Translations under genes and position numbers: made by a program
Source: Caryophanon sp.
GTDB lineage: Bacteria > Bacillota > Bacilli > Bacillales_A > Planococcaceae
Direction of reading: 5' to 3'
Assembly: GCA_018384745.1 (NCBI GenBank)
Contig: JAHAYH010000023.1
Location: forward strand, 1-36,812
DNA: 36,812 nt
The notes under the pieces: generated by a model
Database searches by the model: none
Told to the model about the DNA's origin: nothing
What the model saw: the letters and a program-made list of their open reading frames with translations, nothing else
Part shown: piece after piece, positions 3,594-24,121 of the stretch
Layout: every line of letters starts with the position of its first letter
Position numbering within the stretch: position 1 is the first letter of the stretch

Positions 3594-4964
3594 TTATGAA
3601 ACATGTGTTGGTTGCTCGCTCGTCTTCACCGCTTTGCCATAAGAAAACGTTTGGCGCACCTCTTGCTGCCATACTGTTTTACCACGCACAATCGTTCGTT
3701 CAACGCGCACGGGGAACGTATGCCCTTCATAAATAGACTCTTTATGACGCGCTTCCATGTTCGCGACAGTCGCCGTTTGAGGATTGTAGCTCATGATCGT
3801 GATATCCGCGTCGTAGCCAACTGCTAGCTCGCCTTTTTGCGTTAATGAAAAGCGCTCTGCGACATTTTTCGTGAAGAAACGCGCCACAAATGGTAATGGT
3901 AAATGATGCTTAATCGCAAGCTCGAGTAACGCAACGTACGTAAACTGCCCACCGTTAATGCCACCCCATGCTTCAAAAATATGACGCTTCGTTAAATCTT
4001 TTAACGCATACGGCGCGGGCGAATGATCCGATGTTATAAAGTCAAACTTTCCCGCTGCAAATAGTCGCTGCAATGCGTGTTGCTCTTGTTCATTCCGCAA
4101 TGGTGGTGCACATTTTGCAACCGCACCGAACTCATGCAATGCGCCTTCATTGAACAGCAAATAATGTGGACATGTCTCAAGCGTCACATCAAGCCCTTCT
4201 TCCTTCGCTGCTTGAATCGCTTCCACCGCTTTTGCGCTGCTAATATGCACAAAGTGAAGCGCACATTTTGTTAAACGTGCATAATGTAGCGCGCGTGTCA
4301 CCGCTTCAACTTCCGCTTCAATCGGACGACTTGCACTGTACGCCTCAAACGTTATATGCCCTGCACCGATCGCTTCGTCCTTTAAATAGCGCGTCATCGT
4401 TTCACTTTCAGCGTGCAATGCTAAAATTTTCCCGAGACGCGCAATTTCATACATGCCTGCTAGAAGCGTCTCATCGTCGACACGTTCAAATTCATCGTTG
4501 CCTGAATCCGATAAAAACGCCTTAAATCCGACAACGCCTGCGTCAGCCATCGCTTGTAAATGTTCGATGTTGCCTGGCACTAAACCGCCCCACAACCCGA
4601 AGTCAACAAGTGACGACTCATGTGCTGCACGCTCTTTTTGTGCGTATGCACCTGCTGTGATCGTTGATGGACTGCCGTTTAATGGCATATCTAAAAACGT
4701 TGTGATCCCACCAGCTGCAAGCATCGTCGAGCCGGTTTTGAATCCTTCCCATTTCAGCGGGCTCGGCTCGTTCATATGCACATGCGCATCAATACCACCT
4801 GGTAATACGAGCTGATTTGTCGCATCGATTTCTTCCATACCACGCATAATGAGCTGTCGTTCAATGGCGACAATGACACCATGTTGAATCGCAACATCTG
4901 CTTCAATTACGCGGTCGCGTAATACTACTTGTCCATTCCGGATGATTGTATCAACGAACTGCAT
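3594..4964 (-). CDS. allB: Allantoinase
   Basis: Hydrolyses the ring of allantoin to allantoate in the cytosol. The 456-residue amidohydrolase shows the full binuclear-metal set: H61 and H63 in GGIDAHVHMNEP, probable carboxylated lysine K148 in GFKAF, H184 in LHAE, H240 in HFVHIS, and D313 in TSDHSPAP. The VHMNEP and SDHSPAP contexts favour allantoinase over dihydroorotase or hydantoinase, and the neighbours agree. It is the last gene of allC-pucG-allB. The start lies 40 bases inside pucG behind a strong GGAGGAG, so translation is coupled. Confidence 0.95.
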   Translation of the reverse strand: MQFVDTIIRNGQVVLRDRVIEADVAIQHGVIVAIERQLIMRGMEEIDATNQLVLPGGIDAHVHMNEPSPLKWEGFKTGSTMLAAGGITTFLDMPLNGSPSTITAGAYAQKERAAHESSLVDFGLWGGLVPGNIEHLQAMADAGVVGFKAFLSDSGNDEFERVDDETLLAGMYEIARLGKILALHAESETMTRYLKDEAIGAGHITFEAYSASRPIEAEVEAVTRALHYARLTKCALHFVHISSAKAVEAIQAAKEEGLDVTLETCPHYLLFNEGALHEFGAVAKCAPPLRNEQEQHALQRLFAAGKFDFITSDHSPAPYALKDLTKRHIFEAWGGINGGQFTYVALLELAIKHHLPLPFVARFFTKNVAERFSLTQKGELAVGYDADITIMSYNPQTATVANMEARHKESIYEGHTFPVRVERTIVRGKTVWQQEVRQTFSYGKAVKTSEQPTHVS

Positions 4965-6202
4965 CGCGTCTCCTCCTTCGTTGCCGCATAAAAGTGTAGC
5001 GCTGCTTGTAACGCTTCTCCGCGGTGAATCGTTGCGCCTGCATAAATGAGCGACGCCTCTAATGCGCTTAATACAGCGAGCACATTTTCTTTTCGACAGC
5101 TATAGCCCATCGTACCAATGCGCCAAATTTTGCCGTGTAGCGGACCAAATGATGACGCAATTTCAACGCCGAACTGCTCAAGCATAAAGGCACGCACTGC
5201 ATCACCATCAATGTTTTCTGGAATATGCACACATGTTACGCACGTTAACTTATGTGCACGCTCGCCAAACAATGAAAGCCCCATCGCCTGTAGCCCTTGT
5301 TCTAATGCTTCTGCATGATACGCATGACGACCGAAGCGCACCGGCAATGTTTCCTCAAGTGTTACTCGCACACCTTCTCGCAGTGCATAGAGCATCGTCG
5401 TCGCTTCTGTATGGTGATTTAAACGGCGCGGGCTCCAGTAATCCATGAGCATCGCTAAGTCAAAGTAGTTTGACGCAATTGCTACATTCCCTGCATACTG
5501 TGCGTCGTCTGCGGTTGCAATGCCGCGCTCTACTTTTTTGCGCTGCAATACAACTCGCTCAATGCGCTCATTAAACGTAATCGGCGCCATCCCTGCTGGA
5601 ATCGATAAACATTTTTGCGTGCCACCGATACAAGCATCAATGCACCAGTCATCCACGCGTACATCGACACCTCCGATCGACGCAACGGCATCGACAACGA
5701 GTAGCACATCATTGCCACGACAATAGCGCCCAATTTGCGCAAGTGGCTGCAAGCGTCCTGTTGATGTTTCACCGTGTACGAGCGCTACTATTTTTGGCTT
5801 GTGCGCCGCGATTGCATCGATGACCACTTGCTCATCAAACACCTCACCCCATTCACAGTCAATCGTCACGACGTTAGCGCCGTATCGCTCTGCAATTTCA
5901 ACAAGCAGATGCCCAAATCGTCCATATACGGGAACCAATACTGTATCGCCTCGCTCAATAATGCTAGCAAGCACCGCTTCGTTTCCTGAACGCGACGTGC
6001 CATCGATTGGGAAAGCCCATTGATTCGTCGTTTGGAAAAGCTCACGCAGCATATCCATCACTTCATTCATCATCGTCGTAAAACTCGGGTCAAACTGCCC
6101 AACAATATTCGTTGTCATTGCGCGCAATACGCGAGGATCTGCCTCAACAGGACCTGGTGTCATAATTGTTCGTTGTGGTACGTGTAACGGTTGCCATTTC
6201 AT
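4925..6202 (-). CDS. pucG: (S)-ureidoglycine--glyoxylate aminotransferase
   Basis: A PLP-dependent class V aminotransferase (AGXT type). The PLP lysine is in GGTQKCLSIPAG (about residue 197 from this start), and the GTSRSG phosphate loop and VVDAVASIGG are present. In Bacillus, PucG moves the amino group of ureidoglycine to glyoxylate, giving oxalurate (N-carbamoyl-2-oxoglycine) and glycine. I place the start at the ATG at 6202, because the AAGGAG formed by the upstream gene's stop (6211-6216) sits 8 bases before it. The GTG at 6211 lies inside that Shine-Dalgarno. The end overlaps allB by 40 bases. Confidence 0.93.
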   Translation of the reverse strand: MKWQPLHVPQRTIMTPGPVEADPRVLRAMTTNIVGQFDPSFTTMMNEVMDMLRELFQTTNQWAFPIDGTSRSGNEAVLASIIERGDTVLVPVYGRFGHLLVEIAERYGANVVTIDCEWGEVFDEQVVIDAIAAHKPKIVALVHGETSTGRLQPLAQIGRYCRGNDVLLVVDAVASIGGVDVRVDDWCIDACIGGTQKCLSIPAGMAPITFNERIERVVLQRKKVERGIATADDAQYAGNVAIASNYFDLAMLMDYWSPRRLNHHTEATTMLYALREGVRVTLEETLPVRFGRHAYHAEALEQGLQAMGLSLFGERAHKLTCVTCVHIPENIDGDAVRAFMLEQFGVEIASSFGPLHGKIWRIGTMGYSCRKENVLAVLSALEASLIYAGATIHRGEALQAALHFYAATKEETRCSSLIQSSGMDK

Positions 6203-6214
6203 CGCCTTCACTCC

Positions 6215-7423
6215 TTAATATGCTAGTTGATAAAGCACTGCTTTTAATACGTCAATACCTGTTTGCAGCTGCTCTGCTGCGGTGTATTCCTTCGGTGAAT
6301 GACTAATGCCATCTTTACTCGGCACAAACAATAACGTCGTCGGCACAACTTCACCGAACACTTGCGCATCATGCCCTGCACCACTCACCATTTCTTCATA
6401 TGAAATGTCGTGCTGCTGCAAATACGTCTTCACCCATTCGTTTACATGTGCATCCATCGCCACTGGTGCAACGTCGAGCCATTGTTCAATGCCATACGTC
6501 ACCCCATGCTGTGCAGCAATTTCAGCAAGTGCTGAAAAAATTTTTTCACAATACGCGATGATGGTAGCTTCATCGTAATGACGCACATCCAATGTAAACT
6601 TCACATCATTTGCAATGACATTTGGAACATTCGGGGAAATGTGCATTTGTCCTGTTGTCGCAACAAGTGTGTCATCAAATGCATTTGCCTCCTCGGTGAA
6701 GCGTGCAATACAGGTTGCGGCTGCTACAAGCGCATCTTGACGGTAAGGCATCGGCGTTGTGCCTGCGTGATTGCTCTCCCCACGAATCGTGATCGTATAG
6801 CGGCGCTGTCCGACAATATGTGTCACGACCCCAATATCCTTTTGCTTGCGCTCAAGCACTTGGCCTTGCTCAATATGTAGCTCGACAAAACGATTTACGC
6901 GACGCACGGTTGGTACACCATCAATGCCACATGCTGCGCGTGCAACGTGTAACGGAATGCCATGTTGATCGATGACGCCGTCCATATGCGCTAAATTGTA
7001 TTGTCCAACGACACTGCGAGACCCCCAAAACGTTAACGGGAAGCGACTGCCTTCCTCTTCACAAAGCGATACGACCTCCAATGTTTTTTTCGGTCGACCA
7101 TGTTCTTCAAGCAGCTCGGTTACCGCGACAATGCTTGCGATCACACCGTAAGCGCCGTCTAGTTTCCCACCGTTTACAACCGTATCAACATGCGATCCTG
7201 TTAAAATGATGTCGTCTGTTTGCGTGCCCTCGATGCGACCAAAGACGTTTCCAACCGCATCGATGTCTGTCGTTAGCCCACCTTGTTCCATACGTGTACG
7301 CAACGCTTGCTGCGCTTGTTGCCACTCCGCTGTATATAATAAACGCGTCACACCACCATCTTCGGTTAAGCCAAATTGCGCGAGCCAATCTACTTGTTGT
7401 TGCACCGTTGTTTTAATCATCAT
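6215..7423 (-). CDS. allC: Allantoate amidohydrolase
   Basis: An M20-type metal-dependent amidohydrolase of the allantoate/ureidopropionase/carbamoylase group (Bacillus PucF, E. coli AllC). It converts allantoate to ureidoglycine, CO2 and ammonia. Visible metal-site motifs are GSHVDTVVNGGKLDG (about 76-90), CEEEGSRF (121-128), VELHIEQG and GISHSPKEY. Length is normal. A GTG at 7432 is possible, but AGAGGTGAG overlaps it and fits the ATG at 7423 or 7420 better. First gene of allC-pucG-allB; its TAA forms part of the pucG ribosome binding site. Confidence 0.93.
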   Translation of the reverse strand: MMIKTTVQQQVDWLAQFGLTEDGGVTRLLYTAEWQQAQQALRTRMEQGGLTTDIDAVGNVFGRIEGTQTDDIILTGSHVDTVVNGGKLDGAYGVIASIVAVTELLEEHGRPKKTLEVVSLCEEEGSRFPLTFWGSRSVVGQYNLAHMDGVIDQHGIPLHVARAACGIDGVPTVRRVNRFVELHIEQGQVLERKQKDIGVVTHIVGQRRYTITIRGESNHAGTTPMPYRQDALVAAATCIARFTEEANAFDDTLVATTGQMHISPNVPNVIANDVKFTLDVRHYDEATIIAYCEKIFSALAEIAAQHGVTYGIEQWLDVAPVAMDAHVNEWVKTYLQQHDISYEEMVSGAGHDAQVFGEVVPTTLLFVPSKDGISHSPKEYTAAEQLQTGIDVLKAVLYQLAY

Positions 7424-7476
7424 TTTGCTCACCTCTGACTTTCTATGTAAGGTTTTCTATCTTGTTTATGTTATTA

Positions 7477-7573: not shown

Positions 7574-9172
7574 ATGAACGTTGTTGAATTAATGAACGTC
7601 CCACAATTTGAGACGATGAAGGTCATTGCAGGTGCACAAGGGGTCGAACGCGAAATTTCGACCGTAACGATGATGGATGCACCAGATATTATTCGCTTTT
7701 TAAAAGAAGGTGAATTGCTCGTCACAACCGCGTATCACGTCAAGGATGACGTCGATTCATTGTTGCACTTGATCAAAGAAATGAGCGCGCGCCATTGCAC
7801 TGCACTCGCCATTAAAACGAAGCGCTTCATGCACGAAATTCCGCCGCAAGCAATTGAGCTTGCCAATCGCCTACACTTTCCGCTTCTTGAACTACCATTA
7901 CATATGTCGTTAAATGAAATCGTCACGTATACGCTGCGCTCGATGCTAAACGAGCGAGAATCCGAATTAACGCTCGCCCTTGATACGCATAAACAGTTTA
8001 TGCAGCTTGTTATGAAAGGGCACGGCATTCACCAGCTATTAAAGCAGTTATCCACAATGGTCGACGTGCCCGTACGCTTTGTTGATCAACATTTGCACGT
8101 ATTCGCCAATTCGCATCCATCCTATCACTTCGACTCTTTACAACAAGACTTCTCACTCCAATACCGCCAAGTCGAAATGCAGCTTAGCTTTATCGCATCG
8201 AAAAAAACATACACGTACATTCCCGTTCATATTACCGAGCGAAAATGCGGCTTTTTAGTCATTGCCCGCGCGTTAGATCTCGATGATAAAGTCGCGCGCC
8301 TCGTATGTGAACAAGCAGCCAATGTACTGTCATTTTTCCTCATGAAAGAATATGCGCTGAATCAGCAACGCCGCCATATTCGCAATGAGTTTTTCGCGAA
8401 ATATTTGAACAGCTCGTATTCACCGAAGGAAACGACAAGCCGCTTAGAGGAATTTCAAATCGCTGTCAACGAGCCATATGTTTGCGTCGTTGCGCAGCTT
8501 GATGGTGTGAACAGCACGTATAGTCACTTGCGCTCGCAGCAACTTTTAACGGACGTATTTGACTTTGTCGAAAGCTACGTGTCACTGCATAAATTAAATA
8601 TTCATTTCTTTAGTAAAAACACAAATGGTATTTTACTGTTTCACGTACCGCCGACGTGCACGCGCGCAAGTGAAGTTGTCGAGCCGTTTTTGTTAGAGCT
8701 GCAACATGTCATTCAATCGCAGTTTAAAGAAACGATGTCGTTTGGCGTGTCGAATATGATGCAGTCATTTTTACAATGTAAAGCTGGTTTTAAAGAAGCA
8801 AGCGAAGCACTCGCAAAAGGCGAGCTTGCGCAAAAAACAAATTACATTCAGCTGTACGACGTAAAAGATATTACCGAGTTGCTGCACTTAATTCCGTATG
8901 AAAACTTGCATGCGTTTTATGACCATACGCTACACGCCCTCCATGCCATTAAAAATGTTGAAGAGCGTGAAGCGTTGTTTCAAACAGTCGCAGTCTTTTT
9001 AGAAACGCACTGTCAAATTGCTGAAACGGCAAAGCGCCTATTCATTCACCGAAACACGGTCGTTTATCGCCTTGAAAAATGCGAGGAGCTACTTGGACAG
9101 TCGCTGAAAAATGCCGAGTTTACGCTGCAGCTACGCCTAGCGTTTCGCGTGCGCCAACTGCTTGATTTATAA
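7574..9172 (+). CDS. pucR: PucR family purine catabolism regulator
   Basis: The 532-residue regulator has the PucR/CdaR layout: an N-terminal PucR ligand-sensing domain (about 10-125, beginning VPQFETMKVIAG), a central GGDEF-like region (about 290-415), and a C-terminal helix-turn-helix of the PucR type (about 475-528, AETAKRLFIHRNTVVYRLEK). In Bacillus, PucR controls the purine catabolic genes in response to pathway intermediates. GGAGGTG at 7559-7565 sets the start. It diverges from allC, as expected for a local regulator, and converges tail to tail with the flavoprotein gene, overlapping it by six bases. Confidence 0.93.
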   Translation: MNVVELMNVPQFETMKVIAGAQGVEREISTVTMMDAPDIIRFLKEGELLVTTAYHVKDDVDSLLHLIKEMSARHCTALAIKTKRFMHEIPPQAIELANRLHFPLLELPLHMSLNEIVTYTLRSMLNERESELTLALDTHKQFMQLVMKGHGIHQLLKQLSTMVDVPVRFVDQHLHVFANSHPSYHFDSLQQDFSLQYRQVEMQLSFIASKKTYTYIPVHITERKCGFLVIARALDLDDKVARLVCEQAANVLSFFLMKEYALNQQRRHIRNEFFAKYLNSSYSPKETTSRLEEFQIAVNEPYVCVVAQLDGVNSTYSHLRSQQLLTDVFDFVESYVSLHKLNIHFFSKNTNGILLFHVPPTCTRASEVVEPFLLELQHVIQSQFKETMSFGVSNMMQSFLQCKAGFKEASEALAKGELAQKTNYIQLYDVKDITELLHLIPYENLHAFYDHTLHALHAIKNVEEREALFQTVAVFLETHCQIAETAKRLFIHRNTVVYRLEKCEELLGQSLKNAEFTLQLRLAFRVRQLLDL

Positions 9173-10579
9173 TGTGACAAACTCTTGATCTGCCGTAAAT
9201 TCTTCCTCGTTATACGCAAGGAAGTTTTGCAGCACGCGCTTGCGGTCATCTAAAAACAACTGGTCGGCGATTGTGCTCACTAAGCGCGGAATGCCAAAGC
9301 GCATACCTGATAATGCAGAAGCAACTAAGCCACAGCTTGGCAACGCACCGTAGTTAAACGAAAACAAACCGTGAAGCTGTTGCTGTCCTTCTGACGTGCG
9401 CCCTATAAACTCAAATCCTTTTCCTAAATACGGATGTAGTTCAATAAGCGAGTGCTTCATCGTGCTCGGTGCTTTATAACAATCTGACCAACGCGCAATA
9501 TGCGGCTCAACTAGACGTAGCTCACGGCGAAGTGCTGGATTTGTTAGCAACCCTGTACTAATGACGATGAAGTCGTATGTGAACGTCCCTTTTGGTGTTG
9601 TTAACTGCACTTCATCATTTTCCGTCTGTACAATCGCTTCAATTGGTGAGCCTGTATGTAACGCAAAGCCATCAAAGCTTGCCGCGCGTCGAAATGTATC
9701 GTTTGTTGGCGGTTGATTGTAACTAAAGAAATGCGCAATCGCCATATACTTTTCATCATCACTTAACGCATGGAAGCGCTCAATTAACCCTGAATGTTCC
9801 ATTTGGCGAATTGGGTTAACGCGTGGCATTTGCGCGCGTCGAACGAAAACATGCGCTTGATCAACACCTTGCTGCAATGCGTAATACGCGTTATCAAATG
9901 CCGATGCCCCACCACCAATAATGGCAACGCGCTTTCCTTTTAACTGCGTAAAATCAATAAGCTCTGACGTATGCGCATACACATCGCGCGATAAATTTTC
10001 TTTAAATATATCCGGTACATGCCATTCACCACCACCTTGAATGCCGGTTGCAAGCACAACTTTACGCGCAAGCAATGGTTGCTCCCCTTCAATATGCACG
10101 CGGTGTAGTCCGTTTGCGAGCGGTTCAATAACATCGACCTTTTGATTGTTCTTTACAGGCAGCTGTAGTACGCCGCGATACCAGCGTAAATACTGCATCC
10201 ATAAGCTGCGTGGAATTTTATCGAGCGCTTCCCACGAATTTTCACCAAATTTCGCAACATGCCACGCTTGGTATGTTAATGAAGCATGTCCAAGATCCAC
10301 CGATGTGATCGTTTTAGGTGTACGTAACGTCACCATGCGCGCATATGTTTCCCATGGTCCTTCAAAGCCAGCTGGATTCTCATCAAGCACGACAATATTT
10401 GAAATGCGCTCCTTTTTTAACGCAAAGGCAGCTGCTAAACCGCTTTGTCCACCACCAATAATGATGACATCATATACGTGCTCCTCATGCTCTACTTTCG
10501 TTGTCCAATCGGCTGCTCCGTAGTTAATCCAAGCAAGCTCTTGTTGAATGCGTTCGTTTAGTTGTTGTAACATCGTCAT
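9167..10579 (-). CDS. FAD/NAD(P)-dependent oxidoreductase (CzcO-like flavoprotein)
   Basis: The 470-residue protein has two dinucleotide-binding Rossmann motifs: IIIGGGQSGLAAAF at about 39-52 for FAD and AIIGGGASAFDNAYY at about 219-233 for NAD(P)H. ATGI at 177-180 and STGLLTNP mark the linking strands. This is the architecture of group B flavin monooxygenases and CzcO-type proteins. It is not HpxO, the urate hydroxylase, which belongs to the single-Rossmann aromatic hydroxylase family. The substrate is unknown. AAGGAG precedes two possible ATGs (10579 and 10573); the second has the better spacing. It is separated from the upstream operon by a terminator. Confidence 0.85.
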   Translation of the reverse strand: MTMLQQLNERIQQELAWINYGAADWTTKVEHEEHVYDVIIIGGGQSGLAAAFALKKERISNIVVLDENPAGFEGPWETYARMVTLRTPKTITSVDLGHASLTYQAWHVAKFGENSWEALDKIPRSLWMQYLRWYRGVLQLPVKNNQKVDVIEPLANGLHRVHIEGEQPLLARKVVLATGIQGGGEWHVPDIFKENLSRDVYAHTSELIDFTQLKGKRVAIIGGGASAFDNAYYALQQGVDQAHVFVRRAQMPRVNPIRQMEHSGLIERFHALSDDEKYMAIAHFFSYNQPPTNDTFRRAASFDGFALHTGSPIEAIVQTENDEVQLTTPKGTFTYDFIVISTGLLTNPALRRELRLVEPHIARWSDCYKAPSTMKHSLIELHPYLGKGFEFIGRTSEGQQQLHGLFSFNYGALPSCGLVASALSGMRFGIPRLVSTIADQLFLDDRKRVLQNFLAYNEEEFTADQEFVTL

Positions 10580-10705: not shown

Positions 10706-10751
10706 GAAAATGACAATGTTATATATTCTCACACATTTTAGCTCAACACGA

Positions 10752-10794
10752 AAAAACGAGCGAACAACATGTCACATGTTGTTCACTCGTTTTT
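10752..10794 (-). terminator. Terminator of the amidase-to-CHR operon
   Basis: Twenty-base arms run from AAAAACGAG to CTCGTTTTT around the loop TCA. The single imperfect pair is a wobble on the minus strand and a C-A mismatch on the plus strand, so the structure is best formed by minus-strand transcripts leaving the CHR genes. Confidence 0.88.
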
Positions 10795-10801
10795 AAACAG
10801 C

Positions 10802-11329
10802 TTATAATAATAACGCACCGATCGCTAAGCCACCGACAATGACAAATGCTGGATGAAGCTTTACTTTCTCTAGCAAAATGTAGCTAACAACAGCAAACAC
10901 AGCCGTTAACCAAATGCCGATATTTCGCTCCGACTCTACGAAAAAGTCGATCGTTAACGCACCCATTAATACCGCAATGGCTGGTAGTACAAAGCTCGAT
11001 AAACGCTTGACGCGCGGTGAGTTGCGGTACATATGTAATACTTTTAATAGCGCAAGCATTAATATAACAGACGGCCCAACTGTCGCAAACAGCGCAATGA
11101 ACGAACCGAATACACCAGCTACTTCAAAGCCAATATATGCCGCCATTTTCGTCGCAATTGGTCCTGGCAGCGCGTTACCAAGCGCTAACACTTCGGAAAA
11201 CTCCGACTTTGTCATCCAGCCGTATTTCTCTACAACTTCATGCTCAATGAGTGGAATTGTCGCTGGACCACCACCATAACCGATTATGTTTGGAACGAAG
11301 AATGCTAAAAACAACTCGATATACGTCAT
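10802..11329 (-). CDS. Short-chain CHR (chromate transporter-like) protein, second of pair
   Basis: The 175-residue hydrophobic protein has about five membrane segments. It carries the CHR signatures PNIIGYGGGPATIPLIEHE (about 13-31) and LALGNALPGPIATKMAAYIGF (about 48-68). Short CHR proteins work as pairs, as with B. subtilis YwrA/YwrB. The first base of its ATG lies in a four-base overlap with the partner's TGA, which favours balanced production. Known long CHR proteins export chromate. Here the operon context is purine-derived acids, so another oxyanion or dicarboxylate is possible; this is inference. Confidence 0.88.
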   Translation of the reverse strand: MTYIELFLAFFVPNIIGYGGGPATIPLIEHEVVEKYGWMTKSEFSEVLALGNALPGPIATKMAAYIGFEVAGVFGSFIALFATVGPSVILMLALLKVLHMYRNSPRVKRLSSFVLPAIAVLMGALTIDFFVESERNIGIWLTAVFAVVSYILLEKVKLHPAFVIVGGLAIGALLL

Positions 11330-11895
11330 GATGTCGCCTCCTTCTTCACCGGCAACACGAATGCTGCAATGAGTAATACTGCAATGACAATACCAGGATG
11401 AATATGCAGCACTTCAATCGCGACTATGCTTGCTGCAATTAAACTAAGCGCCACTTTCATCGTTAGCTGCTTCTGTGCCTTTGTGAAAAACTCCCACGTC
11501 AACACTGCCATCATGACACCAACGATCGGCACGACACCTTTTGTCATGCCGTTTACCCAGCCGACCTCACGAAACTTTGATAGCGATGCTAACAATACAA
11601 TCATTAAAAGTGCAGATGGTAATACGGTCGCAAACAGCGCATTCAACATCCCGATCCAGCCGCCAATGCGGTAACCGATACTGCCAGCAAGCTTTGTCGC
11701 AATCGGTCCTGGTAACGTGTTGCCGACTGCAAGCTCCTTGCCAAATTCATCACTATCCATAAACTGAAACACATCGACCACTTCTTTTTTGACAAGCGGA
11801 ATGGTAGACGGTCCGCCGCCAAACCCTAAAATGCCGGAGCGGAAAAAGGCGACGAATATTTCATATTGCGTGCGTCCAAAAGACTTAGTAGCCAA
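11326..11895 (-). CDS. Short-chain CHR (chromate transporter-like) protein, first of pair
   Basis: Begins MATKSFGRTQYEIFVAFFRS if initiated at the TTG at 11895. It has CHR signatures LGFGGGPSTIPLVKKEVV and VGNTLPGPIATKLAGSIGY and about five to six membrane segments. I chose TTG 11895 because GGAG stands six bases upstream and CHR proteins normally start shortly before this amphipathic segment. An upstream TTG at 11955 would add 20 residues, but they lie wholly within the conserved C-terminal codons of the gene before it. It overlaps that gene by 11 bases and the next CHR gene by 4. Confidence 0.87.
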   Translation of the reverse strand: MATKSFGRTQYEIFVAFFRSGILGFGGGPSTIPLVKKEVVDVFQFMDSDEFGKELAVGNTLPGPIATKLAGSIGYRIGGWIGMLNALFATVLPSALLMIVLLASLSKFREVGWVNGMTKGVVPIVGVMMAVLTWEFFTKAQKQLTMKVALSLIAASIVAIEVLHIHPGIVIAVLLIAAFVLPVKKEATS

Positions 11896-13507
11896 CTGCT
11901 GCTCCGTCGCTTCGCGGATCTGTTCCGCCGAATTTAACTCCTGTTTGTTGATCAATCCAAATCGCCCCCGCGTGCCCCATTACATCCGTTAATGGTGGCA
12001 TAATTTCAAGCTCATGACCTGCGTCTATTAGCTGTTGCTGCACATGTGTTGGAATGCGGCTTTCTACTTTCAATGTGTTCGAAGATGCGCCCCACGTACG
12101 CCCGTATAACCAGCGCGGTGCTTCAATCGCCTCCTGCACGTTCATGCCGTAATCAATAATGCGCGTAACTAGTGCTGCCTGTGTTTGTGGCTGCCCTTCA
12201 CCGCCCATCGTTCCGTACACAAGCGCAGGCTTCCCGTCCTTTAGTAACATCGCTGGATTTAACGTATGGAACGTGCGCTTTCGCGGTTGCAAACAGTTCA
12301 TATGCGCTTCATCTAGCGAGAAAAAGCTGCCGCGATTTTGCAGCAATACGCCTGTTCCCTTTGGAATAAAACCAGACCCAAATTCATGATAAATGCTTTG
12401 AATAAACGATACCGCATTTCCTTCTCGATCGACAATGCCAAACCAGACCGTATCACCTTTTGGATCAAGTGGTTGCAGCTCCTTCATCTCTACTGCAATC
12501 GATGCCGCAAGCTCCTTCCCGCGCGCTTCACTTAACAGCTCATCCACCGGAATATCATAAAATTCTGGGTCTGTGACATATTTGTCGCGATCCGCAAACG
12601 CGCGTTTAATCGCCTCGACAACGACGTGGTAATACTGTGCAGACCCTTCTGGAATACTCGATACATCAATGTTTTGTAAAATGTTTAAAATCGATAATGA
12701 CGCAAGCCCTTGCGTATTTGGTGGTAAGTTGCATGCACGGTAGCCACGGTAATTTACACTTAACGGGTCAACCCACGTGCTCGTGTGCTGCGCAAAATCA
12801 TTTTCCGTTAATACACCACCGTGCTGTTGCAAGTCGCGCACGATGTCTTTTGCAAGCGTGTCATAAAAATAGGATGCACCGTGCTGCGCAATGTGCTGTA
12901 ACGTATTGGCTAAATCCGGCTGCGTAAAGATCGATCCTGCTTGTACTGGTTTACCCTGTTGTAAATAAATGCGGCTAAACTCTTCAAAGCGTTGCAGCGC
13001 GCGGAATTGTTCATCTTCTTCTAAGTTTACTTCCGTCCAGTGCTGCTGGCTTGGCGTTGTCGGGAACCCATCTTTCGCATAATGAATAGCGTCTTCTAAT
13101 AGCGTGCTCCACGCAAGTGAACCGTTCATTTGTTCAGCGCTATACGCATACGCATCGCTCCACCCTTTCACGGCACCTGGTACGGTATTTGCCGCTAATG
13201 CACCACGCGCTGGAATGGTGTTATAGCCTTTGCTCGTATAAAAATCAATCGTCGCATGTTCCCCTGCACGACCGCTTGCATTTAACCCTTTTAATTCCCC
13301 ATTTTCCGCATTGTATATGAGCCAAAAGTTATCGCCACCAATGCCGTTCATGTGCGGATACACAACCCCAATTGTTGAGGCAGCTGCAATCGCCGCTTCA
13401 ATCGCATTGCCACCTTGCTGCAATACTTTTAATGCCGCTTGTGATGCTAAATAATGCGGCGTTGTCACCATTCCATTGATCCCCATTGTCGTTGCACGAT
13501 ACTGCAT
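11885..13507 (-). CDS. Cytosolic gamma-glutamyltransferase-fold hydrolase, HpxW-like
   Basis: The 540-residue Ntn-hydrolase of the gamma-glutamyltransferase family should self-cleave before T353 (in DPKGDTVWFGIVD) to expose the catalytic threonine. GMVTTPHYLASQAALKVLQQ, YGTMGGEGQPQTQ and the C-terminal DPRSDGAAVGY are family hallmarks. There is no signal peptide, unlike secreted GGTs. Together with the purine setting, this suggests a role like Klebsiella HpxW, oxamate amidohydrolase (oxamate to oxalate plus ammonia). The start at 13507 is set by AAAGGGGATGGG; a longer reading would overlap the upstream gene. The specific activity is inferred. Confidence 0.82.
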   Translation of the reverse strand: MQYRATTMGINGMVTTPHYLASQAALKVLQQGGNAIEAAIAAASTIGVVYPHMNGIGGDNFWLIYNAENGELKGLNASGRAGEHATIDFYTSKGYNTIPARGALAANTVPGAVKGWSDAYAYSAEQMNGSLAWSTLLEDAIHYAKDGFPTTPSQQHWTEVNLEEDEQFRALQRFEEFSRIYLQQGKPVQAGSIFTQPDLANTLQHIAQHGASYFYDTLAKDIVRDLQQHGGVLTENDFAQHTSTWVDPLSVNYRGYRACNLPPNTQGLASLSILNILQNIDVSSIPEGSAQYYHVVVEAIKRAFADRDKYVTDPEFYDIPVDELLSEARGKELAASIAVEMKELQPLDPKGDTVWFGIVDREGNAVSFIQSIYHEFGSGFIPKGTGVLLQNRGSFFSLDEAHMNCLQPRKRTFHTLNPAMLLKDGKPALVYGTMGGEGQPQTQAALVTRIIDYGMNVQEAIEAPRWLYGRTWGASSNTLKVESRIPTHVQQQLIDAGHELEIMPPLTDVMGHAGAIWIDQQTGVKFGGTDPRSDGAAVGY

Positions 13508-13524
13508 ATTCCCATCCCCTTTTC

Positions 13525-14364
13525 TTAACAAACTGTATGTTGTAATGCGGTCATCTGTGTAATGACACATGCCGCTTCATCCCCTGCTTGAATGATGAAT
13601 GACCCCGGTGTCCCAGTCATAATAATGTCTCCTGCTTGTAGTTCCACAAACTGTGAAATGTACGACACAATATACGCGGGCGAATACATCATATGATCAA
13701 TCGTATTTTCATGAATGACACGACCGTTATGGACAGACTGCACGCGCAGTTGCTCTAAGTCTTCAATTTCATTGGCCGTTATGAGCACTGGTCCGAAGCT
13801 AAAAAATGTTGGAAACACTTTTGACATTTGCAGGAACCTCGGATTTTTCGCATGAATATCTTTCGCTGTTAAATCAAGCGACGTCGTGTACGCACTTACA
13901 TAAGATAGCGCCTCTTCCTCCGAAACATCGTGGCATCGTTTCCCAATGACAAGCGCTAATTCCCCTTCAGCTGATACCGTTGTCGAGACAGTTGGCAGCT
14001 GTAAGGCATGTTGCAGTGAAGCAATCGTTGAGGCCGGCTTCATAAAGACGACCGGTTCTTCGGCGCGCTCTGCTTGTAAATCCTCGAGCTTTTGTTGATA
14101 GTTCATACCAACACCGAAAATATGCGCTGGTGTATTGTACGGCGTTTCAAATTGCACATCATGAATGGCTACATGTTCAAGTGTCGCTAACTGCGGCACA
14201 GTCGCTCGTAATTGCTGCAACGTCTCGAACTGTACAAGCGCATGCACGTCATTTGGAAACTGCTGTGTAAGCGCAGTATTAATTGTGCGAATAAATACGA
14301 CGTTCTCCTCGATCACAACGGCGGCATGGCGCTCGTCGTTATACGTTACTGTGCAAAGCTTCAT
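13525..14364 (-). CDS. Fumarylacetoacetate hydrolase (FAH) family enzyme
   Basis: The 279-residue protein has the C-terminal FAH fold. Metal ligands are visible as E133/E135 in AEGELALVIGKR and D164 in TTSLDLTAKDIH. MTGTPGSFIIQAGD is the usual late loop. The family includes C-C hydrolases, decarboxylases and lyases acting on 2-oxo acids; some members are annotated as ureidoglycolate lyases, but I cannot assign that here. GAGGTG seven bases before the ATG is a good ribosome binding site. The start lies inside the amidase gene (overlap 26 bases) and the end is 17 bases before the GGT-fold gene, so it is in the operon. Confidence 0.83.
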   Translation of the reverse strand: MKLCTVTYNDERHAAVVIEENVVFIRTINTALTQQFPNDVHALVQFETLQQLRATVPQLATLEHVAIHDVQFETPYNTPAHIFGVGMNYQQKLEDLQAERAEEPVVFMKPASTIASLQHALQLPTVSTTVSAEGELALVIGKRCHDVSEEEALSYVSAYTTSLDLTAKDIHAKNPRFLQMSKVFPTFFSFGPVLITANEIEDLEQLRVQSVHNGRVIHENTIDHMMYSPAYIVSYISQFVELQAGDIIMTGTPGSFIIQAGDEAACVITQMTALQHTVC

Positions 14365-15508
14365 GTTGCATCACCTCTTCTACAAATTGTAATAATGCAC
14401 GGTCGGCTCCGCGTGCTGCGATGAATGATAACCCAATTGGCAACCCATCGACAACAATTGGCACTGTTACTTGTGGGCAACCGCTCAGTCCTGCAATGCA
14501 CGTTAACATCATCGTTTTTGTGCGCACATCTTCCACTTCCGAAGCTGTCGCTGCACGCTTTGGCGCGACGTCTGGAATCGTTGGAATGACGAGTAAACGA
14601 TCGTCGCGTAGCACATTTTGTAAGCTATCTGTAAACTGTTGCTGCTGTGCTTTTAAGTCGGCATATTGCGCAACATCCAGCGTTTTTGTCCACATAAAAC
14701 GCTCCTGAATAGCCGGTGCAAACGTCGGTTCATGTGCTTCAATCCACGCCCCGTGCTGCTGCCAAATTTCAATACCTTGAATGTGACGAAACAGTGCAGC
14801 GTAGTTACCGAGCCCCTCCTTCGCTAATGTAATCGAAGCTGTTGGCAACTGCAATGTAGCCAGCAGTTCAATCAGACGTCGACGATATTTCGGCGTCACG
14901 AGCTGCAAACTTTGCTGTTCAAGAAGCAACGTCGTAAACGTTTGTTGCCCATCGGTTGTTGGCAGTAACACATCCCCTACCGCTCTTAACGTTTTCGCAT
15001 CACGTGCAAACCAACCGACCGTATCGAAACTTTTTGCAAGCGGGATGACACCTTGTAATGACACAGCTTGATGCGTCGGTCGAATGCCGTACAAACCGCA
15101 ATACGCTGCTGGAATACGTACCGATCCACCCGTGTCAGTACCAATGGCAAACGTCGCTTCTTCACACGCAACTGCCGAAGCAGAGCCACTGGAAGAGCCG
15201 CCACAAATGCGCGTGTCGTCGTATGGATTTTTCGGCATGCCGTAATGGATGTTTTCGCCGTTTAAGCTATACATTAATTCATCGGTATGCGTCATCCCAT
15301 TCAGCGTTGCTCCTGCCGCAAGCAGTTGTTCAATTGTCGGTGCAGTCGCCTTGCTTTTGTCGTGTGTTGCAAGCCATGTCGGATTACCTGCGCTATTTAC
15401 ATGATCGCTTAGTGCAAACACATCTTTCACCGCAAACGTCATGTTTGATAAGCTACCGGTTCCAGCTGGTGGCACATTCATTGTTTGTATATACGCATTG
15501 GATGTCAT
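14339..15508 (-). CDS. Amidase signature family amidase
   Basis: The catalytic triad is intact: K28 in AVKDV, cis-serine S105 in GGSSSGSA, and nucleophile S129 in GTDTGGSVRIPA. At 389 residues it is a compact family member without an added domain. It hydrolyses a C-N amide or ureido bond. First gene of a five-gene minus-strand operon in the purine island, where oxalurate, made by PucG, is an attractive substrate (inference; Klebsiella HpxY is also an amidase of this family). AGAGGG abuts the ATG at 15514 and is properly spaced for the ATG at 15508, which I prefer. Confidence 0.85.
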   Translation of the reverse strand: MTSNAYIQTMNVPPAGTGSLSNMTFAVKDVFALSDHVNSAGNPTWLATHDKSKATAPTIEQLLAAGATLNGMTHTDELMYSLNGENIHYGMPKNPYDDTRICGGSSSGSASAVACEEATFAIGTDTGGSVRIPAAYCGLYGIRPTHQAVSLQGVIPLAKSFDTVGWFARDAKTLRAVGDVLLPTTDGQQTFTTLLLEQQSLQLVTPKYRRRLIELLATLQLPTASITLAKEGLGNYAALFRHIQGIEIWQQHGAWIEAHEPTFAPAIQERFMWTKTLDVAQYADLKAQQQQFTDSLQNVLRDDRLLVIPTIPDVAPKRAATASEVEDVRTKTMMLTCIAGLSGCPQVTVPIVVDGLPIGLSFIAARGADRALLQFVEEVMQHEALHSNV

Positions 15509-15542
15509 GTGCATCCCTCTTTCTTATGTCAGTTTTTCTTAC

Positions 15543-15586
15543 ATAACATTACTGTATCGAACGACGCACAAATCGTCATTGTGCAA
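15543..15586 (-). promoter_or_regulatory. Candidate promoter and operator of the amidase operon
   Basis: On the minus strand, TTGTGC (15566-15571) and TGTTAT (15543-15548) are 17 bases apart and could be -35 and -10. The -35 is one arm of an inverted repeat, GCACAA and TTGTGC (15566-15571 and 15579-15584). TTGCACAA read on the minus strand (15579-15586) matches the core of the 12-mer found at 7514 and 10694. Confidence 0.4.
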
Positions 15587-15659: not shown

Positions 15660-15689
15660 AAAAAAAGCCACCGAGCGATGTCGGTGACT
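15660..15689 (-). terminator. Terminator of the MFS transporter gene
   Basis: On the minus strand an eight-pair stem, AGTCACCG with CGGTGGCT (one wobble), encloses an eight-base loop and is followed by six T. It separates the transporter gene from the amidase operon. Confidence 0.8.
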
Positions 15690-20165: not shown

Positions 20166-20197
20166 AATGGGTATAGAAGAACAATGGAGGGATGTGT

Positions 20198-22084
20198 ATG
20201 ACGGTCGAAGCGATGGAAAAGAAAGAACATATACTTGTAACGAATTTAAAAGCATACGGTGAGCTGCTGCTTGCAATCATCGTCGGCGTCCTTATTTTAT
20301 TTGCGTGGCGCATGGACATTGTCGGCTTAGAAACAGCCGCAATTTTAACGTATATTGCGGCGTTCTTTCTCGGTGGTTATACGAAAGCTAAAAGCGGCAT
20401 TTTAAAAGGGGTGCGTGAACGAAAGCTAAACGTTGAAATTTTAATGATTCTTGCTGCAGTTGGCGCATGCTTAACAGGCTACTGGACAGAAGGAGCGCTT
20501 TTAATTTTTATTTTCGCGGTCAGCGGTGCCTTTGAAACGCTCATTTTGCGCAAAAGTCAGAAGGATTTATCTGAACTCATTCAACTGCAGCCACAGCAAG
20601 CAGCCCTCGTACGCGGTGGGTTTGCGCCCATTCAAATTCCAATTGATGAGCTGACAATTGGCGATCACATTTTAGTAAAGCCTGGCGAACGCATTCCAGT
20701 TGATGGCGAAATTTTTAAAGGGAGCGCCACGATCGATGAATCCGCATTAAGCGGTGAATCGATTCCATTACATAAAGAAGTGGGCGATGCGGTATTTGCT
20801 GGTACGATGAATTTACATAACGCGATCACTGTCGTTGTGACAAAAAAAGCAACTGATACGGTATTTCAGCAAATATTAGCGTTAATGGAACGCGCCAAAA
20901 ATGATAAAGCGCCTGCACAAATGTTGCTAGAGCGCATTGAGCAGCGCTACGTACAAGTTGTGCTGCTCATCGTCGGCATCATGATGTTTGTGCCAATGCT
21001 CGTTTTTGATTGGTCATTTGAAACGTCCTTTTACCGTGCAATGGTACTGCTCGTGATTGCTTCACCAAGCGCGCTCGTTGCATCGATTATGCCAGCTACA
21101 CTCGCAGCCATTTCAACAAGTGCAAAACAAGGCATTTTATTTAAAGGCGGCAGTCATTTTGAAACGCTTAGTCGCGTACAGCAAGTTGTCTTTGATAAAA
21201 CAGGGACGCTTACAATGAGCATGCCAAAAGTCGTCGATTTAGTCGTCGCCAGTGATGTAGAACGCGATGATACGCTCCGTTTACTCGGCGCGATTGAAAG
21301 TAAGTCTAGTCATCCACTAGCAGAAGCGCTCGTGAAAGAACTATCGATTCGCTATACGCTCACATACGAAGCGTTAACCGTCGAAGAAATTGCCGGACAA
21401 GGGCTTATTGCGCATACGACGACGCGCTCGTTCCGCGTTGGTAATGAATCATTTGTTGGCACGCAAGCTGCGACTGCCTTTTTAGCGCAGCACAATATTG
21501 ATACACGCGGTAAAACATTCGTCTTTTTAGAGGAAGACGGTGTGCTACTCGCAGCGGCATCGCTGCAAGATCCGATTCGCCAAGAAGCAGCAGCAGCCAT
21601 TGCACAATTAAAAGCGCTGCACATCGAACCGGTGATGCTGACAGGTGATAACGAGCATGCCGCACAAAGCGTAGCCGAACTCGTTGGTATTACACACGTC
21701 GAGGCAAATAAACGTCCCGAGGAGAAAGCAGCGTATATTGAAGCGCAGCAGCACGTAGCGATGGTTGGCGATGGCATTAATGACGCCCCTGCCCTCGCGC
21801 TTGCAGATGTCGGCATTGCGATGGGCAAAGGGACAGCCGTCGCGCTTGAAACAGCGAGCGTTGCATTAATGGAAAATGATTTACGCAAGCTCGTTCAAGC
21901 AATTACATTAAGCCGGAAGCTACAGCGCATTATTACACAAAACATCGTCGTGTCGATTATTGTCATTGCGCTTCTTGTATGCACAAACTATTTACAAATT
22001 GTCAATTTACCGTTTGGCGTATTGCTGCACGAGCTAAGCGTCTTGTTCGTCATCGTCAACGGCTTACGCATGTTAAAACGTTAA
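20198..22084 (+). CDS. P1B-type ATPase paralogue with altered metal site
   Basis: A 628-residue heavy-metal-type P-type ATPase without an N-terminal metal-binding domain. The catalytic parts are intact: TGES-equivalent LSGES at about 184-188, DKTGTLT with D333, LTGDN, and GDGINDAPAL. The intramembrane SPC expected of P1B-4 pumps is SPS (289-291), and the HEGST of the last helix is HELSV (611-615), so both metal-ligand motifs are lost. The substrate has probably changed, or the pump is impaired. It is the upstream member of a tandem pair. GGAGG seven bases before ATG 20198 favours that start over ATG 20192. Confidence 0.9.
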   Translation: MTVEAMEKKEHILVTNLKAYGELLLAIIVGVLILFAWRMDIVGLETAAILTYIAAFFLGGYTKAKSGILKGVRERKLNVEILMILAAVGACLTGYWTEGALLIFIFAVSGAFETLILRKSQKDLSELIQLQPQQAALVRGGFAPIQIPIDELTIGDHILVKPGERIPVDGEIFKGSATIDESALSGESIPLHKEVGDAVFAGTMNLHNAITVVVTKKATDTVFQQILALMERAKNDKAPAQMLLERIEQRYVQVVLLIVGIMMFVPMLVFDWSFETSFYRAMVLLVIASPSALVASIMPATLAAISTSAKQGILFKGGSHFETLSRVQQVVFDKTGTLTMSMPKVVDLVVASDVERDDTLRLLGAIESKSSHPLAEALVKELSIRYTLTYEALTVEEIAGQGLIAHTTTRSFRVGNESFVGTQAATAFLAQHNIDTRGKTFVFLEEDGVLLAAASLQDPIRQEAAAAIAQLKALHIEPVMLTGDNEHAAQSVAELVGITHVEANKRPEEKAAYIEAQQHVAMVGDGINDAPALALADVGIAMGKGTAVALETASVALMENDLRKLVQAITLSRKLQRIITQNIVVSIIVIALLVCTNYLQIVNLPFGVLLHELSVLFVIVNGLRMLKR

Positions 22085-22090
22085 ACGACT

Positions 22091-22125
22091 AGCACGTATG
22101 GAGAGGTTTCCATGCGTGCTTTTTT
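22091..22125 (+). terminator. Terminator after the first ATPase gene
   Basis: A 12-pair stem, AGCACGTATGGA with TCCATGCGTGCT, loop GAGGTT, then T5. It separates the two ATPase genes into independent units. Confidence 0.88.
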
Positions 22126-22165
22126 GTTTCGTAAGCAAAATCCTTCCCTTCTACAACTACTTAGA

Positions 22166-22180
22166 TTATAATAATTATAA
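22166..22180. promoter_or_regulatory. PerR box, perfect
   Basis: TTATAATAATTATAA matches the PerR consensus TTATAATNATTATAA at all fixed positions. PerR is the Bacillus peroxide-sensing Fe/Mn repressor, and pfeT/zosA is one of its known targets. Confidence 0.85.
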
Positions 22181-22182
22181 AT

Positions 22183-22197
22183 TAATAATAATTATAA
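22183..22197. promoter_or_regulatory. Second PerR box, one mismatch
   Basis: TAATAATAATTATAA differs from the consensus at one position and begins two bases after the first box. A weaker third half-match lies around 22207-22221. Tandem sites suggest tight or cooperative repression. Confidence 0.65.
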
Positions 22198-22240
22198 ATA
22201 AAAAAATAATAATCATTTACAAGTAGAATGGAGGGCTTTT

Positions 22241-24121
22241 ATGTTAATTAGTAATCGAGAATCTTTATCAACAAATGAGAATGTTAAGGCATACGGTGAA
22301 TTAATTGCGGCCGCGCTTGCCGGTGTGCTCATCGTCATCGCGTGGCTCCTACATACGTACAACGCAGAACAATGGTCGGTCGTCATCTATATCGCAGCCT
22401 TTTTAATCGGTGGATATGCCAAAGCTAAAGAAGGGATTACCGAAACGATCCGCGAGAAAAAGTTGAACGTTGAAATGCTGATGATTTTTGCAGCGCTTGG
22501 GGCATGTATTACCGGTTACTGGGCAGAAGGTGCGCTGCTTATTTTCATTTTCGCAGTGAGCGGTGGCTTAGAATCATATGCGCTTAGTAAAAGCGAAAAA
22601 GAATTATCGGCATTAGTTGAACTACAACCTCAGCAAGCTACACGTGTCGAACAAAATACGCATGCCATTGTCGCTGTACGCGATTTACAGATTGGCGACA
22701 TCGTGATCGTAAAACCTGGGGAGCGTGTGCCCATTGATGGTGAAGTCGTAACGGGGCGTTCATCGATCGACGAAGCGGCTTTAAGCGGCGAAGCGGTACC
22801 TGTTGAAAAACATGTAGGTGATGATGTTTTTGCTGGTACACTGAATGGTAGCGGCGCGCTCACAATTTGCGTTACAGCAGAAGCGAAAAACACGGTGTTC
22901 CAACAAATTGTAACGCTTGTTGAACAAGCACAGCACGATAAAGCGCCTACGCAGCAATTCATTGAAAAATTTGAAGAGCGCTACGTACAAGCGGTGTTAA
23001 TCATTGTCGGCATCATGATGTTTTTACCGGTATTTGTGCTCGACTGGTCATTTGAAACAGCCTTTTACCGCGCGATGATACTGCTCGTTGTCGCTTCTCC
23101 TTGTGCGCTTGTCGCTGCTGTTATGCCCGCAACGCTTGCAGCCATTTCCGCTGGTGCAAAACAAGGGATTTTATTTAAAGGTGGACAGCACTTTGAGCAG
23201 CTCAGTCGCTTACAACGCATCGTGTTTGATAAAACAGGTACGCTGACGATTGGACAACCAACAGTTGTGGATGTTGCCGTGTCAGACGATGTAAATGAAC
23301 AGGATACGTTACAGCTACTTGCGACGATTGAACAACAGTCCCATCATCCCCTTGCACAAGCAATCGTGACATATGTCGAACAGCGCTATACACTGCATGC
23401 ACACGACGTAACAATTGAAGATTTGCCAGGCTTTGGTCTACGCGCCACATATGAAGGCAATGTGTATCACATCGGGAAAGCAGACTTTGTTGGCAAAGAC
23501 GCGGCACACGCATTTTTAGCAGCACATCACATAGATGCGGTTGGGAAAACACTCGTCTTCTTACAGCATGATGGGCATATTTTAGCGGCTGTTTCGCTGC
23601 AGGATACGGTCCGCGCTGAAGCAAAAGATGCAATTGCAGCATTGCAGCGTCACGGCATTACACCAGTCATGCTAACCGGAGATCATGAGCTTGCAGCTGA
23701 TGTTGTCGCAAAGCAGCTCGGCATAACGGAGGTGGTCGCTAACTGCTTACCTGCGACGAAAGCTAAATACATCCAACAACACGACCACATTGCGATGGTT
23801 GGCGACGGTATTAACGATGCCCCTGCCCTTGCGCTTGCAGATGTCGGCATTGCGATGGGCAAAGGGACAGCGGTTGCGTTACAAACAGCAGACGTTGCTT
23901 TGATGCAAAATGATTTACGTAAAATCGAACAAGCGATTCGCATGAGTAAAAAACTACAGCGCATTATTACACAAAACATCGTGTTCTCTGTCAGTGTAAT
24001 CGTGCTGCTTGTGTTATCAAACTTTTTACAGATCGTCAATTTACCGCTTGGCGTTATTGGACATGAGGGCAGTACGATTTTAGTCATTGTTAACGGCTTA
24101 CGCATGTTGCGCACAAATTAA
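22241..24121 (+). CDS. pfeT: PfeT/ZosA-type P1B-4 ATPase, ferrous iron efflux
   Basis: A 626-residue P1B-4 ATPase with no N-terminal HMA domain. The transport signature SPC is at 286-288 and HEGST at 608-612; D330 in DKTGTLT is phosphorylated; LTGDH and GDGINDAPAL form the ATP hinge. In B. subtilis the PerR-controlled member (PfeT, earlier ZosA) exports Fe2+ under peroxide stress, and two PerR boxes stand upstream here. The adjacent copy differs in both metal motifs. GGAGGG at 22230-22235 sets the start. A Zn or Co role is the alternative. Confidence 0.9.
   Translation: MLISNRESLSTNENVKAYGELIAAALAGVLIVIAWLLHTYNAEQWSVVIYIAAFLIGGYAKAKEGITETIREKKLNVEMLMIFAALGACITGYWAEGALLIFIFAVSGGLESYALSKSEKELSALVELQPQQATRVEQNTHAIVAVRDLQIGDIVIVKPGERVPIDGEVVTGRSSIDEAALSGEAVPVEKHVGDDVFAGTLNGSGALTICVTAEAKNTVFQQIVTLVEQAQHDKAPTQQFIEKFEERYVQAVLIIVGIMMFLPVFVLDWSFETAFYRAMILLVVASPCALVAAVMPATLAAISAGAKQGILFKGGQHFEQLSRLQRIVFDKTGTLTIGQPTVVDVAVSDDVNEQDTLQLLATIEQQSHHPLAQAIVTYVEQRYTLHAHDVTIEDLPGFGLRATYEGNVYHIGKADFVGKDAAHAFLAAHHIDAVGKTLVFLQHDGHILAAVSLQDTVRAEAKDAIAALQRHGITPVMLTGDHELAADVVAKQLGITEVVANCLPATKAKYIQQHDHIAMVGDGINDAPALALADVGIAMGKGTAVALQTADVALMQNDLRKIEQAIRMSKKLQRIITQNIVFSVSVIVLLVLSNFLQIVNLPLGVIGHEGSTILVIVNGLRMLRTN

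Follow-up and report, generated by a model that had tools for sequence, protein, structure and literature searches.

The window analysed here, a stretch of 36,812 nucleotides from Caryophanon sp. (assembly GCA_018384745.1, contig JAHAYH010000023.1), carries a five-gene operon on its minus strand (15508-10802) beside genes of purine and allantoin breakdown. In order of transcription the genes encode an amidase-signature enzyme, hereafter AMD (14339..15508), a FAH-fold protein (13525..14364), a gamma-glutamyltransferase-fold (GGT-fold) Ntn hydrolase (11885..13507), and two short CHR membrane proteins, CHR1 (11326..11895) and CHR2 (10802..11329). This gene set, including the intact K28-S105-S129 amidase, had been described in an earlier sequence-only reading and was confirmed throughout. 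The same reading had nearly all of the genes joined by short overlaps; overlaps are found at AMD/FAH (26 bp), GGT/CHR1 (11 bp), and CHR1/CHR2 (4 bp), and a 17-bp gap at FAH/GGT. AMD starts with the ATG at 15508, with AGAGGG ahead of it, and the GGT-fold gene with the ATG at 13507, preceded by AAAAGGGG; CHR1 probably starts with the TTG at 11895, with GGAG ahead, its open reading frame (ORF) being open to 11955. The MFS gene upstream ends in an intrinsic terminator (15666..15689, minus strand) that sets it apart from the operon, and a second intrinsic terminator lies 3' of CHR2 (about 10751..10790, read in the sequence on the minus strand and assigned to the plus strand by the terminator scan). 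Flanked by terminators on both sides, the five genes appear to be transcribed together as a single unit. The five-gene set is kept in other genomes and is therefore not a product of chance; the nearest named relative with the complete set is Caryophanon tenue (L130, NZ_MASJ01000007.1).

The closest solved structure to the GGT-fold protein is Klebsiella HpxW (5hft; 47.5% identity), and in a search of solved structures the two HpxW chains together scored 446 bits vs 364 for 2nlz. As the sequence-only reading had stated, T353 serves as the nucleophile; it is numbered T374 in the longer ORF and aligns with the first residue of the small chain of HpxW. Also in line with that reading, the N-terminus MQYRATTMGINGMVTTPHY contains neither a signal peptide nor a hydrophobic stretch. 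In a maximum-likelihood tree of 52 rows, the protein fell in a 20-row clade that includes HpxW (support 99/98). Outside this clade lay E. coli GGT, the 2nlz-type proteins, and two true GGTs from the same bacterial family as the window; 2i3o and E. coli GGT, which have the longest two branches, are placed with less certainty. Clustering with glutathione-active GGTs had been named beforehand as a refutation of the oxamate assignment, and the protein grouped with HpxW instead. Comparison of active-site letters by alignment revealed that all six gamma-glutamyl-binding residues of E. coli GGT (R114, N411, Q430, D433, S462, and S463) are replaced, in each case by the letter of HpxW except in the D433 column, and that the HpxW-type letters (T, S, Y, QNRG, HT, and MGG) are present. 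Nearly the same letters occur in 2nlz-type proteins; they are not specific to HpxW, and alone are therefore no proof of oxamate specificity. The protein also passes the TIGR00066 cut-off (460.9 vs 357.85), as does a related HpxW-like protein, so that this model does not separate HpxW-like proteins from GGTs. The tree and active-site pattern lead us to propose that the GGT-fold protein is an oxamate amidohydrolase.

AMD belongs to the amidase signature family (PF01425), exceeds the cut-off of NF006169 (462 bits vs 391), and has a Lys-Ser-Ser triad (K28, S105, S129) that is invariant in 28 relatives. Membership in the HpxY/AtzE family was rejected, with scores far under the cut-offs (NF006631, 201.8 vs 461; TIGR02715, 194.4 vs 425.75), and the ORF list contains no ORF of HpxX or HpxZ size between the five operon genes. 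The parallel drawn earlier with Klebsiella HpxW and HpxY is therefore retained for the GGT-fold protein and abandoned for the amidase. A structure model of AMD (pLDDT 90.5) has the amidase-signature fold, and its nearest structures include the 1-carboxybiuret hydrolase AtzE and malonamidase E2 (Z 44-45), matches that bear on the fold and not on function. These two enzymes act on small carboxylated amides and ureides; AMD is 25-27% identical to them and has no AtzG/GatC partner. AMD is proposed to be an oxalurate amidohydrolase, yielding oxamate and carbamate/NH3.

A family survey of 261 genomes, in which AMD was called at an identity of at least 48% (the next best match being 38%), placed PucG, the ureidoglycine-glyoxylate aminotransferase that makes oxalurate, in 22 genomes and AMD in 11, all 11 of which contain PucG (Fisher 9e-14, a value inflated by kinship). 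A survey of co-occurrence with pucG had been suggested in the sequence-only reading. In two genomes (G050 and G063) AMD and pucG are far apart yet both present, and the association therefore exceeds mere neighbourhood. A 39-41% AMD-like match near pucG in G252 and G255 was discarded as a generic 500-residue amidase. The oxamate carbamoyltransferase component AllG was found in none of the 11 AMD-containing genomes vs eight of the 11 with pucG and no AMD; urease was found in one vs 10, respectively. Because 10 of the 11 AMD-containing genomes are without urease, an AMD reaction that liberates ammonia and carbamate is favoured over one that liberates urea.

A scan of named genomes yielded 80 AMD loci in Bacillales, with purine-breakdown genes within 10 kb at 46 and pucG at 33; beside AMD, a GGT-fold gene was present at 34 loci and a FAH gene at 35. 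Metabacillus, Priestia, and Domibacillus share the gene order pucF-pucG-permease-AMD-FAH, in many cases together with allB, and Halalkalibacter has pucF-pucG-AMD. The 806-residue protein encoded next to AMD in Niallia and some other genomes is a leucyl-tRNA synthetase and uninformative. In Lysinibacillus and Ureibacillus relatives, genes for an NMT1-type ABC transporter lie directly upstream of AMD (L032:4131-6892, L034, L035, L038, and L039), its substrate being perhaps allantoin, urate, or oxamate.

Nitrogen control of the operon was also indicated. A GlnR/TnrA-like box with one mismatch, TGTAAGAAAAACTGACA, is located just upstream of the AMD start (15527..15543, minus strand), and C. tenue has a perfect box just upstream of its AMD. 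Such boxes (0-1 mismatch) precede 18 of 84 AMD operons, some of which are near-duplicate loci, vs 13 of 372 control stretches; within the window alone, two such boxes exceed chance only weakly, as judged from 10 of 100 shuffled sequences. A perfect box (TGTTATATATTCTCACA, 10717-10733) is found upstream of a flavoprotein gene. GlnR/TnrA-type control of the operon is considered likely from these boxes; in B. subtilis both ywrD and pucR are TnrA-activated (PMC4475385, PMC3412718).

On balance, the operon probably constitutes the branch that handles oxalurate within a nitrogen-scavenging pathway for purines and allantoin; in this branch AMD would act first, the HpxW-like enzyme second, and export last. 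PucG, a known enzyme, forms glycine and oxalurate from ureidoglycine and glyoxylate. AMD would then cut oxalurate at its carbamoyl end to give oxamate and carbamate (NH3 + CO2). Oxamate would be hydrolyzed to oxalate and NH3 by the HpxW-like GGT-fold enzyme, and the carbon would exit as oxalate, with the CHR pair as the most likely way out. The nitrogen of oxalurate would in this manner be recovered with neither urease nor carbamoyl phosphate involved. The FAH-fold protein would be an optional helper: FAH enzymes split acylpyruvates, of which oxalurate is an isostere, so that it could assist or replace AMD. The gene set, clade, active-site pattern, and phyletic and positional associations are observed, and from these we infer each catalytic step and the export. 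A PucG-fed oxalurate/oxamate branch had been put forward in the sequence-only reading, and it is upheld by the HpxW clade, the confinement of AMD to pucG genomes, and the nitrogen-regulator box, while the amidase turned out to be of a family other than that of HpxY.

Two independent gene contexts point to oxalate as the product. In two genomes (G017 and G115) an HpxW-like gene (42%) lies between a uracil/xanthine-type permease gene and an oxalate decarboxylase gene (565 bits, cut-off 254), overlapping or adjoining the latter; both genomes have an AllG gene and lack a CHR2 homologue. A consecutive row of permease, HpxW-like hydrolase, and oxalate decarboxylase (L049:7399-11691 and L050:7553-11826) looks like a self-contained oxamate-to-formate cluster. 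Furthermore, five genomes (L044, L045, L046, L047, and L070) encode a 47% relative of the GGT-fold protein whose gene is directly followed by one of the lactate-permease family (LctP-type), a candidate oxamate transporter, and on a Rubrobacter plasmid such a gene precedes the GGT-fold relative. Oxamate is an analogue of lactate and pyruvate.

CHR1 and CHR2 are adjacent one-domain PF02417 proteins of the paired short CHR type, scoring under the NCBIfam ChrA/ChrB equivalog cut-offs (206.2 and 167.6 bits at best vs 250). CHR genes are present within 6 kb of all 14 close (group-A) relatives of the window GGT-fold gene, and a GGT-fold gene lies beside 64 of 100 CHR loci. Oxalate decarboxylase was absent in nine of the 11 AMD-containing genomes. 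Oxalyl-CoA decarboxylase was dismissed as a sink, with none of the 27 genomes searched, AMD-containing genomes included, giving a match over the cut-off; the matches were far under it and are probably acetolactate-synthase-like proteins. Because most AMD-containing genomes are without a known oxalate-degrading enzyme, exit through the CHR pair, of which CHR1 would form one part, appears the most likely fate of oxalate.

Several observations weigh against the proposed route. A GGT-fold neighbour is missing at 46 of the 80 AMD loci and a purine gene within 10 kb at 34, no GGT-fold gene lies near 36 of the 100 CHR loci, and the FAH gene is left unexplained. Five genomes that have no pucG, AMD, or AllG carry group-A GGT-fold genes, so that oxamate must there come from elsewhere. 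The PucGs of the AMD-containing genomes form one clade (94/89), so that the AMD, AllG, and urease contrasts represent few independent events and their p-values are overstated. A search for PucR boxes gave one weak match, fewer than expected by chance. Finally, the B. subtilis pair YwrBA has a known role in chromate efflux.

An alternative, which we regard as unlikely, is that AMD cuts at the oxalyl carbonyl and converts oxalurate into oxalate and urea in one step, with the GGT-fold enzyme scavenging only external oxamate and its gene co-transcribed with AMD since both enzymes yield oxalate. Amidase-signature enzymes can cleave either amide, and the many AMD loci without a GGT-fold neighbour are consistent with such a reaction. 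The urease distribution speaks against it: without urease, the urea nitrogen would be wasted, despite the nitrogen-regulator box of the operon. There is a slighter chance that the operon acts on some other external small ureide or oxalamide and that it lies next to puc genes only because both are controlled by nitrogen starvation. The AMD loci distant from purine genes and the NMT1-type transporter genes ahead of AMD in several relatives suit this explanation; however, none of the 261 family genomes has AMD without pucG, and both are kept even when unlinked.

It is improbable that the FAH-fold protein itself splits oxalurate, held by a Mg2+-bound oxalyl group, into carbamate and oxamate while AMD acts on oxamate or another amide. 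The protein passes PF01557 and keeps the metal ligands ExE...D, as do its relatives beside AMD, and the gene accompanies AMD at nearly half of the loci. However, FAH is not beside AMD in six of the 11 family genomes or at over half of all AMD loci, the His-Glu lid dyad of the FAHD1 type is replaced by Lys and Asp in the window protein, with the lid His mostly missing in relatives as well, and the HpxW-like enzyme would be redundant. The structure model of the FAH-fold protein, built from only four sequences, has a pLDDT of 45. Oxalurate (H2N-CO-NH-CO-COO-) is shaped like an acylpyruvate with NH replacing CH2, so that on chemical grounds a FAH enzyme could bind it. To take the GGT-fold protein for a genuine gamma-glutamyl hydrolase or transferase, in an operon for gamma-glutamyl or glutathione compounds, is scarcely credible, and this reading was rejected despite the TIGR00066 score, given the loss of all gamma-glutamyl-binding residues, the grouping with HpxW, the missing signal peptide, and the purine-gene context.

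Returning to the proposed route through AMD and the HpxW-like enzyme, the operon resembles Klebsiella hpxWXYZ in its cytosolic GGT-fold hydrolase of the same clade with near-identical active-site letters, and in having the GGT-fold gene adjoin an amidase gene in a purine/allantoin setting (PMC5270733, PMC3560190). It differs in its NF006169 amidase, in lacking HpxX and HpxZ, in the added FAH-fold gene and CHR pair, and in its oxalurate source, PucG. In E. coli, the oxamate carbamoyltransferase AllFGH with the carbamate kinase AllK likewise uses oxalurate and makes oxamate, but conserves carbamoyl phosphate, and leaves oxamate as an end product (17.7 mM from 19.5 mM allantoin; PMC11326118). B. 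subtilis YwrD, an intracellular GGT-fold protein encoded with the short CHR pair YwrB/YwrA, is similar as well, and about half of the family genomes with YwrD-like genes have them next to a CHR pair. Unlike the window protein, the 37-41% group, taken as YwrD-like (YwrD itself being outside the tree sample), falls in a separate clade with 2nlz, and its genes lack AMD and puc neighbours. YwrD was proposed to be an HpxW-like oxamate hydrolase by Danchin in 2017 (PMC5270733), and a passage of PMC8062742 citing Minami 2004 describes it as dispensable for glutathione use.

A literature search returned no paper naming an oxalurate-removing enzyme in Bacilli, where PucG makes oxalurate. The papers searched likewise contained no account of the AMD family, of its mutual exclusion with AllG and urease, or of a link between CHR and oxalate, while the idea of YwrD-type oxamate hydrolysis is prior art. 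A broader claim, that Gram-positive bacteria have a third oxalurate route in which the NF006169 amidase replaces HpxXY and AllFGH, acts with an HpxW-like enzyme, and is completed by oxalate export through the CHR pair, is possible and advanced here only tentatively. If true, the fate of oxalurate in Gram-positive bacteria, with nitrogen recovered without urease, would be answered, many genes labelled gamma-glutamyltransferase would be renamed, and a function would be assigned to an amidase family that so far bears no more specific name. CHR-family chromate-resistance transporters would likewise gain a natural substrate, and the natural role of the paired CHR proteins would become testable with oxalate, another small dianion.

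The operon is adjoined by genes for a flavoprotein, PucR, PucF, PucG, and AllB. PucG (4925..6211, minus strand) is indeed present beside the operon as the sequence-only reading had it, with 608 bits to B. subtilis PucG (3isl). A PucF/AllC-type allantoate deiminase (6215..7432, minus strand) was assigned by family model, and a PucR-type regulator (7574..9172, plus strand) by PF07905 and PF13556. The allantoinase AllB (3594..4964, minus strand; TIGR03178, 522.7 bits vs a cut-off of 357.85) is not at the same place in C. tenue (L130, L031). The flavoprotein (FMO; 9167..10579, minus strand) is a candidate urate hydroxylase judging from its neighbours in many relatives, where hydroxyisourate hydrolase and OHCU decarboxylase genes lie beside it (L032, L034, L038, L090, and L096); in the window and in C. 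tenue, neither gene is adjacent to it. Elsewhere in the window, a tandem pair of heavy-metal P-type ATPases of ~630 residues each is encoded on the plus strand (20192-24121).

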